From contig JAUXDE010000086.1 in the NCBI GenBank assembly GCA_030618495.1, positions 1 to 7,511 on the forward strand: a DNA stretch of 7,511 nucleotides, written 5' to 3'. Numbering within the stretch: position 1 is the first letter of the stretch; every line of letters begins with the position of its first letter. The position numbers and the translations under genes are program-made. Source of the stretch: Clostridia bacterium (GTDB lineage: Bacteria; UBA6262; WVXT01; JAUXBS01). Below are positions 164-5,277 of this stretch, in pieces. The notes under the pieces are model-generated. The model worked only from the letters and a program-made list of their open reading frames with translations. It was not told the DNA's origin and did no database searches.

Positions 164-1423
164 TTACTTCTTAACCACGGGGCCGCGTGGTCTGCAGAAA
201 CCAGATTTCACATGCCTGCCCGGCGAAATACCCGGCGCGGGTAATATACCAAACCTTTCGGCTATAATCAAAGATGCCGGTTTCACCGTAAAATTGCCGT
301 ACTTTGCATTGATGGAGTCAACCGCCCTGGTAATGGCTTCCCGGCTCCTGTAGCTATCAAGCAGAACCCCCTGCCCCCCATCGACAATAAGGTTTGACAC
401 TGAAACTCCCAGAAGCCTGACCGGTTTATGCAGGGGAAGGAATTTTGAAAATATCCTGCCTGCCACACCGTATATCTCAGTACCTGTGGAAATATAATGC
501 TTTAATGAAAACTGCCTTGAGAAGGTGCGGAAGTCCCGGTACCTCACAACAAGGCTCACTGTCCTGCCCATCATACCGTACCGTCTCATCCTGAAACCAA
601 CCTTCTCCGAAAGCATGAGGAGGAACGACTTCAGCACATCAACATCCGATGTATTGACCGGCAGGGTGTAAGAATGCCCCACTGACTTTACAATATCATC
701 GTCGTAGGACATGGACACGGGGCTGTTGTCCTCCCCCATTCCCATCCTCTTAAGTACATGCCCCCAGAAACCAAAGTGCTTCGTGAGCATCCCTGTGGGG
801 GCATCCCCCAGCTCCTTTGCCGTCCTTATCCCCACGCTGTTTAATGCCTTTGTAAGTTTTCTGCCTACGCCGCAGAGTTCCCCGACATCCAGGCCTTCCA
901 TTACGGGGGAAATATCCTCCTTATTAAGAATAACCAGCCCGTCCGGCTTCTTCATCCCGGAGGCAAGTTTTGCCAGGAACTTATTGGAAGCTATGCCCGC
1001 GGAACAGGTGATGCCTATATCCTCTCTTATTCGTTTTTTCATACTCCCGACAACCTTGGCGGGCCCTCCCGGCGCCCCGGCGCTTGCAGTGATATCCACA
1101 AATGCCTCATCTATTGAAAAGAACTCCACCCTGTCGGAGAACTCCATCAGTATACTTCTTATCCTCCTGGTGGTGTCAACGTACTTTTCCATATCGCCGG
1201 CAACATTTATAACATCCGGGCACAGCCTGCCTGCCTCCCGCGGGGTCATGCCGGTTTTTATGCCGTACCGCCTTGCCTCGTAGGAAGCGGTGGTCACCAC
1301 CGTCCTTCCCTCGCCGCACACGATAACGGGCTTACCCCTTAAGGCCGGGTTTGCCTGCTGTTCAACCGAGGCAAAGTAGGCATTCATATCAATATGCAAT
1401 ACCGTCCTGTTATCAGTCGACAT
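164..1423 (-). CDS. dinB: DNA polymerase IV (Y-family translesion polymerase)
   Basis: Error-prone translesion polymerase that copies past damaged bases in the SOS response. The 419 residues cover the whole family. The N-terminal palm motif HIDMNAYFASVE supplies D12, with F17 at the steric-gate position that excludes ribonucleotides. SIDEAF (103-108) gives the other metal ligands D105 and E106. The conserved S-N-K-x-L-A-K stretch is at 146-152, a helix-hairpin-helix-like thumb is around 178-205 (GVGRKLTKAL), and the little-finger domain spans about 241-390. The usual clamp-binding QLxLF site appears degenerate (QGVLLD at 351-356), and the tail is short, Pro/Gly-rich and basic. ATG 1423 is favoured: it lies in the 68-bp repeat and overlaps the end of a fragment of the 82-aa gene, which supplies a weak AGTAAGG ribosome site. 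The gene is visibly more G+C-rich than the BRO gene before it. Identification is secure. Confidence 0.96.
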   Translation of the reverse strand: MSTDNRTVLHIDMNAYFASVEQQANPALRGKPVIVCGEGRTVVTTASYEARRYGIKTGMTPREAGRLCPDVINVAGDMEKYVDTTRRIRSILMEFSDRVEFFSIDEAFVDITASAGAPGGPAKVVGSMKKRIREDIGITCSAGIASNKFLAKLASGMKKPDGLVILNKEDISPVMEGLDVGELCGVGRKLTKALNSVGIRTAKELGDAPTGMLTKHFGFWGHVLKRMGMGEDNSPVSMSYDDDIVKSVGHSYTLPVNTSDVDVLKSFLLMLSEKVGFRMRRYGMMGRTVSLVVRYRDFRTFSRQFSLKHYISTGTEIYGVAGRIFSKFLPLHKPVRLLGVSVSNLIVDGGQGVLLDSYRSREAITRAVDSINAKYGNFTVKPASLIIAERFGILPAPGISPGRHVKSGFCRPRGPVVKK

Positions 1424-1473
1424 AGACCTTACTCAAATACCATTTAAGAGATTTCCGGTTGAAACTCAACTCA
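1406..1473. repeat. 68-bp direct repeat, copy A (dinB side of BRO gene)
   Basis: Matches 2393-2460 at 66 of 68 positions; the differences are at 1431 (a versus g) and 1445 (t versus c), and identity stops sharply at both ends. This copy contains the first six codons of the functional dinB plus the last codons of the 82-aa gene. Together with copy B it brackets the BRO gene (1474-2392 is the unique insert). Confidence 0.93.
1413..1472 (-). pseudogene. Duplicated 3' fragment of the 82-aa DUF6504-like gene
   Basis: Nineteen codons and the stop match the end of the intact 82-aa gene, reading ELSFNRKSLKWYLSKVYVD. Two bases differ: one changes Glu to Lys and one is silent. No start remains, because the BRO gene lies directly upstream. 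The fragment still matters, as it provides the sequence in front of dinB, whose ATG lies inside its last codons. Confidence 0.85.
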
Positions 1474-1491
1474 GAAAAGATATTATTAGTT

Positions 1492-2334
1492 TCATGTTTT
1501 TCTTTTATTCTTTAACTTTTTTAATTTCTCGGTTTCTTTTAAATAATTCTTAGATGTAACTACTTTCTCACCGCTTCTTTTTTCCAGTTCTTTTCTGGCT
1601 ACTCCTGCTACAGTTCCTCCTTCTTTTGCGGCAGACTTATTCTTATCAAACCCAAGAGCATCCTTTTTTCTGGCAATTTTTGTGGTAGAAGCCTCACTAA
1701 GCATAGTAAATATTAATTCCAAATCATCCATATGATCTCTTAAGTTCTGGCGTTTAAGGCCCTTCAGTTTCTGATATTCACCAAGAGTCAATCCGAATGT
1801 TGCCTTGGATATTTCAGCAGTCAACATGGAATACTCTCTTTTTGTTTTTATGCCTCTTTTATCCCATTCATCTGTCAATTCATCCCTTATTGCAATACCT
1901 CTAACTCTTTTCTCAATCCAGTCATCAGAATATCCTTTTGATTTGAATAACTCCTTCATTCGTTTTTGCGCTAATTCCGGGTTTTCTATCTCTTGCACCC
2001 TGTCATAGCCAACCTTGGCAAGCCATCTCTTGAATGGCTCGGCCTTTCTTGAAGGGATTGACTGGATTATCCTGAACATTGATTCTGTTTTTGCACAATC
2101 TGTAACATAGAATTTCCCATCTGATGACTTTAATTTCAGTTGTCCGATTTTTTCGGACAACTCAAAACCTTCTTCATTAAGCCTTTTTTTCAGGTCAGAC
2201 CAGTATTTTCTTGCTCTTCCGCTTTCTGTTAAAACCTCCACAATATCCACTACTGAGAACCACCATTCTTCATTATGCCAGGTTCTTCTGATTTTACTGC
2301 TTTGGAAAACAACTAAACCATTTGATTGTTTCAT
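1492..2334 (-). CDS. BRO-N domain / DinD-like protein (phage antirepressor type)
   Basis: A 280-residue protein of the BRO-N family, recognised by memory of the family pattern. The N-terminal BRO-N domain covers about 8-105 (WHNEEWWFSVVDIVEVL, then QSIPSRKAEPFKRWLAKVGY at 91-110). The C-terminal half (about 150-265: LTDEW, ISKATFG, LRDHMDDLELIFTMLSEAST, ARKEL) parallels the back half of E. coli DinD, an SOS-induced inhibitor of RecA. BRO-N domains are DNA-binding modules common in phages. A basic tail (KKLKNKRKT) follows. ATG 2334 is well supported by AAAGGAG about ten bases upstream. The gene is flanked by a 68-bp direct repeat, is AT-richer than dinB and lexA, and interrupts a former gene overlap, so it is an acquired gene. 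A regulatory role in SOS is inference. Confidence 0.88.
   Translation of the reverse strand: MKQSNGLVVFQSSKIRRTWHNEEWWFSVVDIVEVLTESGRARKYWSDLKKRLNEEGFELSEKIGQLKLKSSDGKFYVTDCAKTESMFRIIQSIPSRKAEPFKRWLAKVGYDRVQEIENPELAQKRMKELFKSKGYSDDWIEKRVRGIAIRDELTDEWDKRGIKTKREYSMLTAEISKATFGLTLGEYQKLKGLKRQNLRDHMDDLELIFTMLSEASTTKIARKKDALGFDKNKSAAKEGGTVAGVARKELEKRSGEKVVTSKNYLKETEKLKKLKNKRKT
2134..2166. repeat. 33-bp in-frame palindrome inside the BRO gene
   Basis: AGTTGTCCGA (2138-2147) and TCGGACAACT (2153-2162) are perfect 10-bp arms around five Ts. Beyond one mismatch (2137/2163) three more pairs match (TTT/AAA). It encodes FELSEKIGQLK (residues 57-67), between the first part of the BRO-N domain and the conserved QSIPS region. 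As RNA it would form a stable hairpin within the coding sequence. Confidence 0.8.
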
Positions 2335-2392
2335 TTTTTATCAACTCCTTTATATAAGATTATTTTATTAACTGTCCACCTCGTTTCTTTTC

Positions 2393-2460
2393 CCTGTTAT
2401 CAGTCGACATAGACCTTGCTCAAATACCATTCAAGAGATTTCCGGTTGAAACTCAACTCA
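2393..2460. repeat. 68-bp direct repeat, copy B (82-aa gene side)
   Basis: Partner of 1406-1473. This copy contains the true end of the 82-aa gene and, overlapping it, a duplicate of the first six dinB codons (MSTDNR, ATG at 2410). That remnant runs on out of register with dinB and stops at 2360 after ten unrelated codons, so it is a decapitated dinB start. It shows that dinB once began here, directly behind the 82-aa gene. Confidence 0.93.
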
Positions 2461-2648
2461 TACAGGTTAGTCCCGTCGGTTACGGAAAAATACAGCAAAA
2501 GCACCTCCCCCCTGTGGACGTGCCAGGTATAAGTAACTTCCTTAACGGGGTACTTCCTGTCGTTCCATACGAACCATTTCGGACTGACTACATTATTACG
2601 GAAAACCACGCCCACCTGCACGGGTTCATCTACGTGTTCATATCCCAT
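2400..2648 (-). CDS. DUF6504-like small protein associated with Y-family polymerases
   Basis: An 82-residue protein with the spacing I associate with DUF6504-type small proteins found beside DinB/ImuB polymerases: PKWFVWNDRKYPVKEVTYTW (23-42), a central strand LLLYFSV, then YELSFNRKSLEWYLSKVY near the end (aromatic, Tyr-Glu-Leu, Trp-x-Leu). It looks like a small all-beta domain, with no signal peptide or membrane segment. Its stop lies inside a duplicated dinB start, so originally it overlapped dinB by 11 bases and was translationally coupled to it. That supports a role as a polymerase accessory factor (inference; biochemical function unknown). The ribosome site (GTGG) is weak. A palindromic regulatory-looking segment lies 40-80 bases upstream. 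Confidence 0.75.
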   Translation of the reverse strand: MGYEHVDEPVQVGVVFRNNVVSPKWFVWNDRKYPVKEVTYTWHVHRGEVLLLYFSVTDGTNLYELSFNRKSLEWYLSKVYVD

Positions 2649-2762: not shown

Positions 2763-3782
2763 CTATATATCCTTAAATAGTTTCTGTATCTGCTCAGGCG
2801 CAGGCAGTTCTTTTTTTAATCTCTGTGGCAGTTTCGTTGTAATCTTGTACTGCGCCACTGCAATGGGCTTTTTGGTTTCCCTGAGCGCATATTCTACAAT
2901 AGTACGCTTTTTCTCCTTGCAAACGATAATACCTATAGATGGATTTTCATGTTTTGCCTTTATTTTACTGTCCAATGCAGCAAGATAAAATTGCATCTTA
3001 CCCACATATTCAGGTATAAACTCTCCAACTTTCAGTTCCACTGCAACAAGGCATCGTAATTTGCGGTGATATAAAAGGATGTCAACAAAATATTCATTAT
3101 CATCTATTTTAAGCCTAAACTGATTGCCCATAAAAGCAAAAGAACCGCCCATTTCAATAAGGAAACGGTTTATTCTGGCAATCAATGCCCGTTCAAGTTC
3201 AACTTCGCTGTGATTCTCACCAAGCTCAAGAAAGTCAAATGCATATTCATCTTTCACTGCTAATTTTGCCTGATTTCTTATCTTAGCCGGGAGAGCTTTT
3301 TTAAAATTAGTCTGGCTGGTAAGAGTTTTTTCATATGTTCTGTTCTCAATCTGATGAATAAGTACGTTTTTACTCCAACCCATGCGACGGGTCATACGAA
3401 TATAGAATTCCCGTTCCAGGGGTTCTTTTACCTTACTCATAATAGTAAGATTATGTGTCCAGCTAATTTCTCCAACCAGTGATTGGAGATTTGAATTATT
3501 AGCATATTCCAGGTAAAACTGTCTCATATACCACAGGTTTTGTACGGAATAACCCCGTAATCCCGGGAGTTCTTTCTGTAGATCTCTCGAAAGTTTTTCA
3601 ACAATTGATTTACCCCAACCATGCTTTTTCTGTTTTTGAACAATCATTTTACCTATATCCCGGTAAAGACTGATAAGTTCATAATTAACCTTTTTTAAAG
3701 CTTCATATTGAGAAGAACATATTCTTTCTTTTATGTCCTTTAAGAACTTTCTGTACTCAATATTTTTGGGTATTTTATTCAT
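2763..3782 (-). CDS. YhcG-family PDDEXK nuclease (DUF1016)
   Basis: Predicted nuclease of 339 residues. The N-terminal DUF1016-type winged-helix region spans about 8-170 (VNYELISLYRDIGKMI; NLWYMRQFY; EISWTHNLTIM; FYIRMTRRMGWSKNVL; then QTNF). The C-terminal PDDEXK domain spans about 175-339 (VKDEYAFDFLELGE; D234 in YFVDILLYHR; E249 and K251 in VELKVGEF; YVGKMQFYLAAL; PSIGIIVCKEKKRT). All expected catalytic residues are present, so it should be active. The family is widespread beside mobile and defence genes, and its substrate is not established. The frame extends upstream to a TTG at 3836, but I chose ATG 3782 because GAGAGG stands nine bases before it and the family starts near there. It is AT-richer than lexA and dinB and is probably acquired. 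Confidence 0.92.
   Translation of the reverse strand: MNKIPKNIEYRKFLKDIKERICSSQYEALKKVNYELISLYRDIGKMIVQKQKKHGWGKSIVEKLSRDLQKELPGLRGYSVQNLWYMRQFYLEYANNSNLQSLVGEISWTHNLTIMSKVKEPLEREFYIRMTRRMGWSKNVLIHQIENRTYEKTLTSQTNFKKALPAKIRNQAKLAVKDEYAFDFLELGENHSEVELERALIARINRFLIEMGGSFAFMGNQFRLKIDDNEYFVDILLYHRKLRCLVAVELKVGEFIPEYVGKMQFYLAALDSKIKAKHENPSIGIIVCKEKKRTIVEYALRETKKPIAVAQYKITTKLPQRLKKELPAPEQIQKLFKDI
3469..3489. repeat. In-frame inverted repeat inside yhcG
   Basis: TCTCCAA (3469-3475) and TTGGAGA (3483-3489) are perfect 7-bp arms around a 7-base loop, in codons for NLQSLVGE (residues 98-105), just before the conserved EISW motif. It is shorter than the palindromes in the BRO and ORF6N genes and could be chance. 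Confidence 0.4.
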
Positions 3783-3888
3783 TTCTTTTATCCTCTCTGT
3801 TCGGGAAAGACATACCAGCCCAACTTGAGGTCGCAATTTGCGACATCAAGACTTCATGCTCTGATTTATCTAACTGAACTATGAAATC
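3775..3888 (-). pseudogene. Probable relic of a second ORF6N gene between lexA and yhcG
   Basis: Starting one base after the lexA stop, a frame with no start codon of its own reads DFIVQLDKSEHEVLMSQIAT and continues SSWAG to a stop that overlaps the yhcG ATG. It aligns without gaps to residues 53-72 of the intact ORF6N protein upstream (DFMFKLTRDESGSLRSQFVT): the DF, L, E, L, SQ and T positions agree. SQIATSSW-like segments are also familiar from ORF6N proteins. After SSWAG the similarity ends. The piece is not a working gene, but it hosts the yhcG ribosome site and a palindrome. Confidence 0.6.
3824..3850. repeat. 27-bp palindrome ahead of yhcG
   Basis: CTTGA (3824-3828) with TCAAG (3846-3850) and GTCGCAA (3830-3836) with TTGCGAC (3838-3844) form a palindrome centred on 3837 with one mismatched pair. 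It falls in the ORF6N relic at the same codons as the perfect palindrome in the intact ORF6N gene, and 42 bases before the yhcG start. It may be inherited from that gene, act as an operator for yhcG, or both. Confidence 0.7.
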
Positions 3889-3889
3889 C

Positions 3890-4477
3890 CTAATAATTAC
3901 GGATTATCCCCACCACTTTGCCTATAACGGAAAACGCCCTTTCCCTTATCGGTTCGTACCTTGGGTTGTCGGGCTCAAGCCATACATTGTTGCCCCTGCT
4001 CTTAAACCTCTTTATAGTTGCCTCGTCCTCCATGAGGGCAACCACGATGTCGTTGTTACCCGCTGACGGCTGCTTCTTCACCACGGCCAGGTCCCCTTCC
4101 ATGATACCGCTGCCCTCCATGCTGTCCCCCATGACCCTGAGGGCAAACACATCGTTATCTCTCGGGAACAGCCCTGAAACATCTATCCATTCCTCAATGT
4201 CCTCTACAGCATGCTCGGGGGCGCCCGCCCTGATCCTGCCCAGTACGGGAATGCCGAAAGCCGGGACAAGCAGTTCTATGCCGCGGTAGAAGTTCTTCTT
4301 GATATTTATTAACCCCCTGTCCTTAAGTATCCTCAGGTAGTCCTGCACCGTGCCGGGGGAGGCGTAGCCGAACCGGGCGGCAATCTCCCTGACCGTAGGC
4401 GGGACATTCTCGGAACGGATATGGTCCTTTATAAAATCAAACACCTTCTTCTGCTTTGCGGTCAATTGTTCTTTCAT
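3890..4477 (-). CDS. lexA: LexA repressor, SOS response
   Basis: Master repressor of the SOS regulon, inactivated by RecA-stimulated self-cleavage. The 195 residues have a winged-helix DNA-binding domain at about 1-70, with the HTH at PPTVREIAARFGYASPGTVQ (26-45), and an S24-type protease domain from about 75. The cleavage site is Ala84-Gly85 in RAGAP, the nucleophile is S119 in GDSM, and the general base is K156 in ATIKRF, so it should be fully autocleavable. The recognition helix (SPGTVQDYLRIL) differs from E. coli LexA, consistent with a different operator. The start is supported by a strong AAAGGGAGG about six bases upstream. It follows the ORF6N gene by 14 bases and is presumably driven by the consensus promoter at 5278-5306, which would make it autoregulated. 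Confidence 0.97.
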   Translation of the reverse strand: MKEQLTAKQKKVFDFIKDHIRSENVPPTVREIAARFGYASPGTVQDYLRILKDRGLINIKKNFYRGIELLVPAFGIPVLGRIRAGAPEHAVEDIEEWIDVSGLFPRDNDVFALRVMGDSMEGSGIMEGDLAVVKKQPSAGNNDIVVALMEDEATIKRFKSRGNNVWLEPDNPRYEPIRERAFSVIGKVVGIIRNY

Positions 4478-4491
4478 TTATTCCTCCCTTT

Positions 4492-4989
4492 CTAAAATCC
4501 TATCTTTCTCTTTTTCTTCTTTGGCGGGGCCATTAATTGTTTAATGGCATCAAATACTACTTTAAATTGACTGTCGTATTTGCGTTCCAGGTGTTCTATT
4601 TTGGCTCTTAAATCTTTATGAGTTGATAGTAATTCTCTGATTCTGGTAAAAGTTCTCATTATCTGGATATTCACATTAATTGCACGATCACTGTTAAGTA
4701 TGCTCGAAAGCATTGCTACTCCATTCTCGGTAAAGGCATAGGGGAAATATTTGGAGTGCTGTCCTCTCTTTAAGGTCACAAATTGTGACCTTAAAGAACC
4801 TGACTCGTCTCTTGTTAGTTTGAACATGAAGTCCGGGGGAAACCGTTTTGAATTACGTTTCACCGCCTGGTTTAAGACTTTTGCAGATACTCCATAAAGT
4901 TCCGCTAAATCTCTGCCCAGCATTACCTTATGACCCCTGGTGAAGTAAATCATATTCTCTATTCTATTTGATAGCATTACGCTTGACAT
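4492..4989 (-). CDS. ORF6N-domain protein (phage antirepressor type)
   Basis: A 165-residue protein with an ORF6N domain at about 10-100: VMLGRDLAELYGVSAKVLNQ, NSKRFPPDFMFKLT, YFPYAFTENGVAMLSSILNS and the NIQIMRTF helix. ORF6N is a DNA-binding-type domain found in phage and mobile-element regulators. A coiled-coil-like stretch follows (112-152), then a lysine-rich tail ending KKKKRKIGF. The end looks a little short for the family. ATG 4989 is the only sensible start, but a 265-bp element ends six bases before it and leaves no visible ribosome site. Codons 65-74 are a perfect 29-bp palindrome. It is encoded just ahead of lexA in the same transcript. The composition is AT-richer than lexA, so it is probably acquired. 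What it regulates cannot be read from the sequence. Confidence 0.9.
   Translation of the reverse strand: MSSVMLSNRIENMIYFTRGHKVMLGRDLAELYGVSAKVLNQAVKRNSKRFPPDFMFKLTRDESGSLRSQFVTLKRGQHSKYFPYAFTENGVAMLSSILNSDRAINVNIQIMRTFTRIRELLSTHKDLRAKIEHLERKYDSQFKVVFDAIKQLMAPPKKKKRKIGF
4768..4796. repeat. Perfect 29-bp palindrome within the ORF6N gene
   Basis: CTTTAAGGTCACAA (4768-4781) and TTGTGACCTTAAAG (4783-4796) are exact 14-bp arms around the single base at 4782. It encodes SLRSQFVTLK (residues 65-74) in the middle of the ORF6N domain. An uninterrupted palindrome of this length inside a coding region is very unlikely by chance. It could be a protein-binding site, possibly for the ORF6N product itself, or an inserted palindromic module. 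Confidence 0.9.
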
Positions 4990-4994
4990 TGATA

Positions 4995-5025
4995 GTGTAG
5001 TGTTACTAACATATCTTTACATATG
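4995..5025. repeat. Terminal inverted repeat, left
   Basis: Perfect 31-bp inverted copy of 5229-5259. Pairing breaks on both sides (4994/5260 and 5026/5228), which defines the element boundary. It forms the sequence just in front of the ORF6N start codon. Confidence 0.9.
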
Positions 5026-5228
5026 CTGGAAGTATTTTTCTTCAGCGTCAAGGAACGAAGAGTGAGAATACTGTACGTATGTGAACGATGAGTGACGCCG
5101 ACGATGAACAAAAGACGACAGCCCTTCGGGAAGGGTATCATTTGGACGCATTCTGCGTCTATCCTCTTCACCATATTCTCGATATGCTTTCATCGTCTTT
5201 CCTTGAATCCGTCCCAAAGCCTGCCCTT

Positions 5229-5259
5229 CATATGTAAAGATATGTTAGTAACACTACAC
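5229..5259. repeat. Terminal inverted repeat, right
   Basis: Perfect 31-bp inverted copy of 4995-5025, starting 18 bases downstream of the -10 box of the minus-strand promoter, so both repeats should lie within the transcript leader. Confidence 0.9.
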
Positions 5260-5277
5260 AATCTCTCTTTCTGATTC

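Follow-up and report, generated by a model that had tools for sequence, protein, structure and literature searches.

A Bro-N gene inserted with a long target duplication next to dinB carries a palindrome predicted to bind its own protein

The Bro-N gene in the 7,511-nucleotide window (the whole stretch of DNA analysed, which is the complete contig G000:C11 of a draft genome of 1.69 Mb and 98% completeness) landed between two DNA-repair genes with both neighbours kept whole. That it entered by insertion with duplication of its target is virtually certain, and the locus as a whole is likely to be best explained as a single-gene insertion with duplication in which the gene carries a palindrome predicted to be the site of its own protein. 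The main genes of the window (ORF6N, lexA, YhcG/DUF1016, an 82-aa DUF6504-like gene, Bro-N and dinB) are all on the minus strand, and the features of the locus are as follows:

164-1423, minus strand: dinB (DNA polymerase IV), ancestral neighbour of the insert
1406-1473: copy A of the target duplication, which has the 3′ end of the 82-aa gene, now dead, as well as the live start of dinB
1474-2392: inserted unit of 919 bp (58-bp leader, Bro-N ORF and 18-bp tail), absent from the same-genus genome G001
1492-2334, minus strand: Bro-N gene, 280 aa, with a Bro-N N-terminus, a helical C-terminus and a DdrC-like overall fold
2138-2162: intragenic palindrome AGTTGTCCGAAAAAATCGGACAACT in codons 58-66, the putative binding site of the gene's own protein
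2173-2214, minus strand: codons of the predicted recognition helix, residues 41-54, in which K43, S46, D47 and K50 track the palindrome
2393-2460: copy B of the target duplication, with the end of the intact 82-aa gene and a dead six-codon dinB start
2400-2648, minus strand: 82-aa DUF6504-like gene, ancestral neighbour of the insert
3824-3850: palindrome LMSQIATSSWAG in an ORF6N remnant between lexA and YhcG
3890-4477, minus strand: lexA, in the ancestral order lexA-DUF6504-dinB also found in G001 and G003
4492-4989, minus strand: ORF6N gene, which contains an intragenic palindrome of its own (4767-4797) that differs from that of Bro-N

The two copies of the direct repeat are identical at 66/68 positions with a spacing of 987, and local alignment of the flanks gave a score of 63 against a maximum of 13.5 across 100 shuffles. 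The intact 82-aa gene, whose DUF6504-like match is weak and below the cut-off, has its end in copy B, where the dead dinB start reads MSTDNR, while copy A supplies the final 22 codons of that gene (1416-1484, residues 61-82) together with the live dinB start at 1423. Bro-N is the sole gene in the insert and no recombinase gene was found in the insert or the window, which sets the unit apart from integrase-type elements; likewise no terminal inverted repeats were found at the insert ends and the duplication is 68 bp, unlike an insertion sequence or transposon. The original prediction had described a 68-bp repeat around a BRO gene, the preservation of both neighbours by a full copy of each and the lack of an integrase, and in these respects it was borne out.

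In G001, the one other genome of the same genus that was compared, ORF6N, lexA, DUF6504 and dinB are consecutive, and at the corresponding locus (L007) the 82-aa gene (867-1115) overlaps dinB (1105-2337) by 11 bases with a single copy of the repeat and neither a Bro-N nor a YhcG gene, which is the empty site that had been predicted. A genome from another family of the same order (G003) also has lexA-DUF6504-dinB without inserts. As both genomes lack them, YhcG and Bro-N are additions in the lineage of the window, and of the two only Bro-N left a long duplication. The YhcG/DUF1016 gene and a palindrome-bearing ORF6N remnant (2763-3900) lie between lexA and the DUF6504 gene, are absent from G001 and have no long duplication. 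Elsewhere in the window, 35-bp inverted repeats that are 97% complementary and 203 bp apart (4991-5263) form a MITE-like structure upstream of the ORF6N gene. Empty sites were also found for a Bro-N gene flanked by a 120-bp repeat of a permease gene start (L022), with three genomes (G020, G025 and G026) having the permease, a single copy, no Bro-N and a collinear flank; a family search for a further flanked locus, L069, gave no clean empty site.

Bro-N relatives were fetched from genomes (80), viral contigs (59) and plasmid or phage records (10); scans of viral contigs that used just the window's Bro-N or ORF6N protein as query returned no relatives and an alignment was needed. Flanking direct repeats were tested by local alignment with a score threshold of at least 18, using neighbouring genes of similar size as controls, and were found at 15/119 Bro-N genes compared with 8/288 neighbouring genes (Fisher p 2.5e-4), the sampled sequences being related and the counts referring to sequences except where the tree is mentioned. 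Repeat pairs with a spacing of 880-1350 bp bracketed a Bro-N gene in 13 cases against 3.7 expected by random placement, the non-bracketing pairs being for the most part arrays of regular spacing or tandem genes. Because the flanked state changes 15 times between presence and absence on the protein tree, the flanked loci represent separate events. Most of the repeats are 25-220 bp long, each locus has its own repeat length and sequence, and the targets are the starts, ends or terminators of unrelated genes. Examples include repeats of 220 bp (L083), 102 bp (L104), 81 bp (L024), 64 bp at the end of a DegT gene (L074), 45 bp with 44/45 identity (L069), 41 bp on a complete plasmid (L015) and 32 bp at the start of a nucleotidyltransferase gene (L019), while at some loci the copies are more diverged (81-86%). 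Most loci come from metagenome-assembled genomes in which assembly errors are possible, yet the complete plasmid shows the same pattern. The search proposed with the original prediction, for other Bro-N genes flanked by duplicated ends of neighbouring genes, found them at lengths of 25-220 bp, and insertion with long target duplication very probably recurs across the Bro-N family. In around 85% of Bro-N genes no long repeat is visible, and therefore either this route is not the sole one or its traces decay.

The same anatomy is seen with other genes. At L024 a KilA-N and a Bro-N gene are set apart by three copies of one repeat. At L077 (1733-2975) 132-bp direct repeats bracket the gene for an AbiEii toxin, which lies immediately upstream of Bro-N. 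At L067 (3829-4167) a bAvd-like gene lies directly downstream of Bro-N, with the repeat corresponding to the start of the bAvd-like gene. In the Arcobacter cloacae plasmid pACLO (L014, 2504-3400), a type I-B CRISPR operon has Bro-N between its cas4 and cas1b genes.

The window gene belongs to Bro-N by score (PF02498, 44 bits against a curated cut-off of 25.6), while its neighbour is ORF6N (PF10543) and the second gene at L024 is KilA-N (PF04383). The label of DinD-like that had been attached to it is weak, with the DinD model NF008573 scoring 16 bits against a cut-off of 242. Among the Foldseek hits that were ranked, leaving room for families absent from them, the best whole-chain fold match was to DdrC of Deinococcus radiodurans (Z 14.6 and 14.4, well above the other rows) with 217 residues aligned at 11-12% identity and an rmsd of 11-12 over the whole chain. 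DdrC is reported to bind, circularise and anneal DNA and to do its binding without sequence specificity (PMC5436757). The modelled Bro-N protein shares the whole-chain fold but differs in that specificity is predicted for it. Given this modelled fold and the activities of DdrC, it is conceivable that the Bro-N protein may help its own gene to move.

Insertion with long target duplication is known from restriction-modification genes, having been described in a comparison of two Helicobacter pylori genomes (Nobusato 2000, as described in PMC1643837), and restriction-modification systems are described as inserting with long, variable target duplications in PMC3031569. Like the Helicobacter insertions, the Bro-N insertions have a gene-sized insert, long variable repeats, a single-copy empty site and no transposase, but here the cargo is Bro-N (also KilA-N and AbiEii) and the distribution extends across bacteria and archaea. 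The window locus, with a repeat of tens to hundreds of base pairs on both sides, a relative with a single copy and a repeat length that varies among loci (25-220 bp), fits this class, so that the anatomy is known and the cargo is new. The mobility route that had been proposed was therefore upheld as insertion with duplication but not as undescribed, since long, variable target duplication is known for restriction-modification genes. At the window locus a one-gene mobile unit, made up of the Bro-N ORF with its short leader and tail, entered the DUF6504-like/dinB overlap of the lexA-DUF6504-dinB cassette, with 68 bp of the target being duplicated on insertion to leave a whole copy of each neighbour. 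Gene-sized DNA may have been joined into a staggered-end break with the gap then filled by host repair enzymes or another enzyme; this route, which we hold to be evenly balanced between right and wrong, is favoured because repeat length is variable, there are no conserved ends and there is no recombinase.

Site-specific integration by a recombinase acting in trans, with the 68-bp repeats as attL and attR, would explain how the repeats restore gene ends in the manner of tyrosine-integrase elements and of integrase-type genomic islands with att-site duplication. The likeness to attachment sites in the original prediction was not supported, as the repeats share neither length nor sequence between loci, the targets are unrelated genes and neither window nor insert has an integrase or other recombinase, making this route very unlikely. 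Alternatively, a circle or transformed fragment with an already inserted Bro-N gene and one repeat may have crossed in by homologous recombination, the duplication being derived from a donor strain. In keeping with this, at the two differences between copies A and B it is copy A that matches G001 both times, whereas copy B, the one belonging to the intact gene, departs from it, and the greater divergence of the copies at other loci points the same way. This still requires an earlier insertion to be explained, and at L022 the differences are divided between both copies, as from drift after a single duplication, so that one foreign repeat copy is unsupported there; donor recombination is accordingly considered unlikely. 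A repeat that predates Bro-N and arose without it, by a tandem duplication preceding the insertion, is scarcely credible, as no point was found in its favour, the repeat is single-copy in G001 and the three L022 relatives, and repeats bracket Bro-N more often than chance placement allows.

Beyond its insertion, the Bro-N gene carries a hypervariable palindrome that in 121 Bro-N genes occupies the same codon position, immediately behind the predicted recognition helix. In the AlphaFold model (pLDDT 87) helix 41-54 is followed by the palindrome-coded segment 57-67 and then a beta wing, and in 108/126 Bro-N genes the best palindrome of the ORF begins at nucleotides 140-260. When genes were aligned on a conserved codon, rather than on a centre chosen for symmetry, and bases -k were compared with +k (k = 1-12), mean complementarity was 0.82, whereas no other centre in the gene exceeded 0.41, and all four pair types were present at k6 and k7. 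A chance palindrome arising from the protein sequence was ruled out, since a synonymous-codon null gave 6.5±0.13 against 10.2 observed and two synonymous positions (codon 58, third base; Leu66, first base) are paired in 92/93 genes; on the tree each of them switched about 21 times, and 8/8 independent pairs changed in the same direction. The covariation of synonymous bases and the excess over the null indicate that the palindrome is under selection on DNA. A homologue from Parabacteroides distasonis has the palindrome AGTTGACTACAAATTGTAGTCAACT. No second copy was found within 200 bp upstream or downstream in excess of the palindromes of other genes, which differs from a classical multi-operator repressor with its several operators in that Bro-N has no second palindrome near the promoter. 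At L015 the repeats (2400-2440 and 3322-3362) each contain the palindrome AATTGTTTTCGCGAAAACAATT and the Bro-N gene has no internal palindrome. At L011 (G000:C129, 4574-4665) a 70-bp remnant of Bro-N, LFEVSEKIGQLKLSAPDGKMRDI, which includes the window palindrome core GTCCGAAAAAATCGGAC, lies just 3′ of a tRNA-Gln gene and adjoins a dispersed 26-bp REP-like motif that has many copies in G000 and G001.

The columns outside the palindrome codons that best track the palindrome are 43, 46, 47 and 50, which form one helix face. Protein pairs with the same four residues have a common palindrome core in 237/243 cases, and in 73/74 where the proteins are less than 50% identical elsewhere, as against about 5% of pairs with different helix residues; for control residue sets the core was shared in 9% on average and 30% at most. 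At single positions, Arg46 goes with G at +8 (28/28) and Asp47 with C+4 G+5 (about 29/31), and Lys43 or Asp43 is in most cases accompanied by G at +6. In pairs with the same residues the helix codons agree at their third bases no more than background, so recent transfer of helix and palindrome by local block exchange was rejected. In ORF6N such a palindrome occurs at the corresponding place in 22/22 genes examined, including the window and its relatives, with helix RL..E associated with CGCAAATTGCG-type sites, (V/A/T)L..Q with CACAAATTGTG-type sites, QL..R with GCCAAATTGGC-type sites and NL..K with TCCAAATTGGA, an independent replication at sequence level of the palindrome and of a consistent helix code. 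Since the helix residues predict the palindrome, recognition by the protein's own helix is indicated and, on the strength of this coupling, it is highly probable that the palindrome is the DNA-binding site of the protein encoded around it. The domains match those of phage-type Bro-N, ORF6N and KilA-N DNA-binding proteins, the difference here being the helix-matched intragenic palindrome, of which no earlier description was found in the open-licence literature, leaving its novelty unproven.

A hairpin in RNA for translation control, or in single-stranded DNA for mobility, would suit the A/T-rich and weakly paired centre (k1 0.49, k2 0.72), which is loop-like, but G-U pairs are almost absent at k3-8, which makes RNA unlikely, and the prediction of the sequence by residues 43, 46, 47 and 50 implies recognition by the helix, so that a hairpin is quite improbable. 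As a duplex site the palindrome would be occupied by the protein and so limit transcription of its own gene. We infer the binding site strongly and autorepression more weakly, with autoregulation somewhat favoured as the main role on the sequence evidence. Because the site lies inside its own coding sequence, the gene would stay self-controlled wherever it landed, which would suit operons with foreign promoters such as the SOS-type cassette of the window and cas4/cas1b in Arcobacter. It is improbable that the palindrome is instead an address for mobility, with the DdrC-like protein binding its own gene, joining the ends to a nicked target and promoting insertion with long duplication; if true, Bro-N, ORF6N and perhaps KilA-N genes would share a type of single-gene mobile element that recognises itself and needs no transposase.

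With these findings, insertion with long target duplication is no longer confined to restriction-modification genes and extends to a common, poorly characterised bacterial and archaeal family with clean empty sites. Each Bro-N or ORF6N gene would be a record of the DNA specificity of its own protein, with a testable recognition code from residues 43, 46, 47 and 50 to half-site bases obtained from sequence alone, and for many uncharacterised proteins the binding site may be legible from the gene. An operator inside codons, as a portable self-operator, suggests why the gene survives landing in foreign operons.
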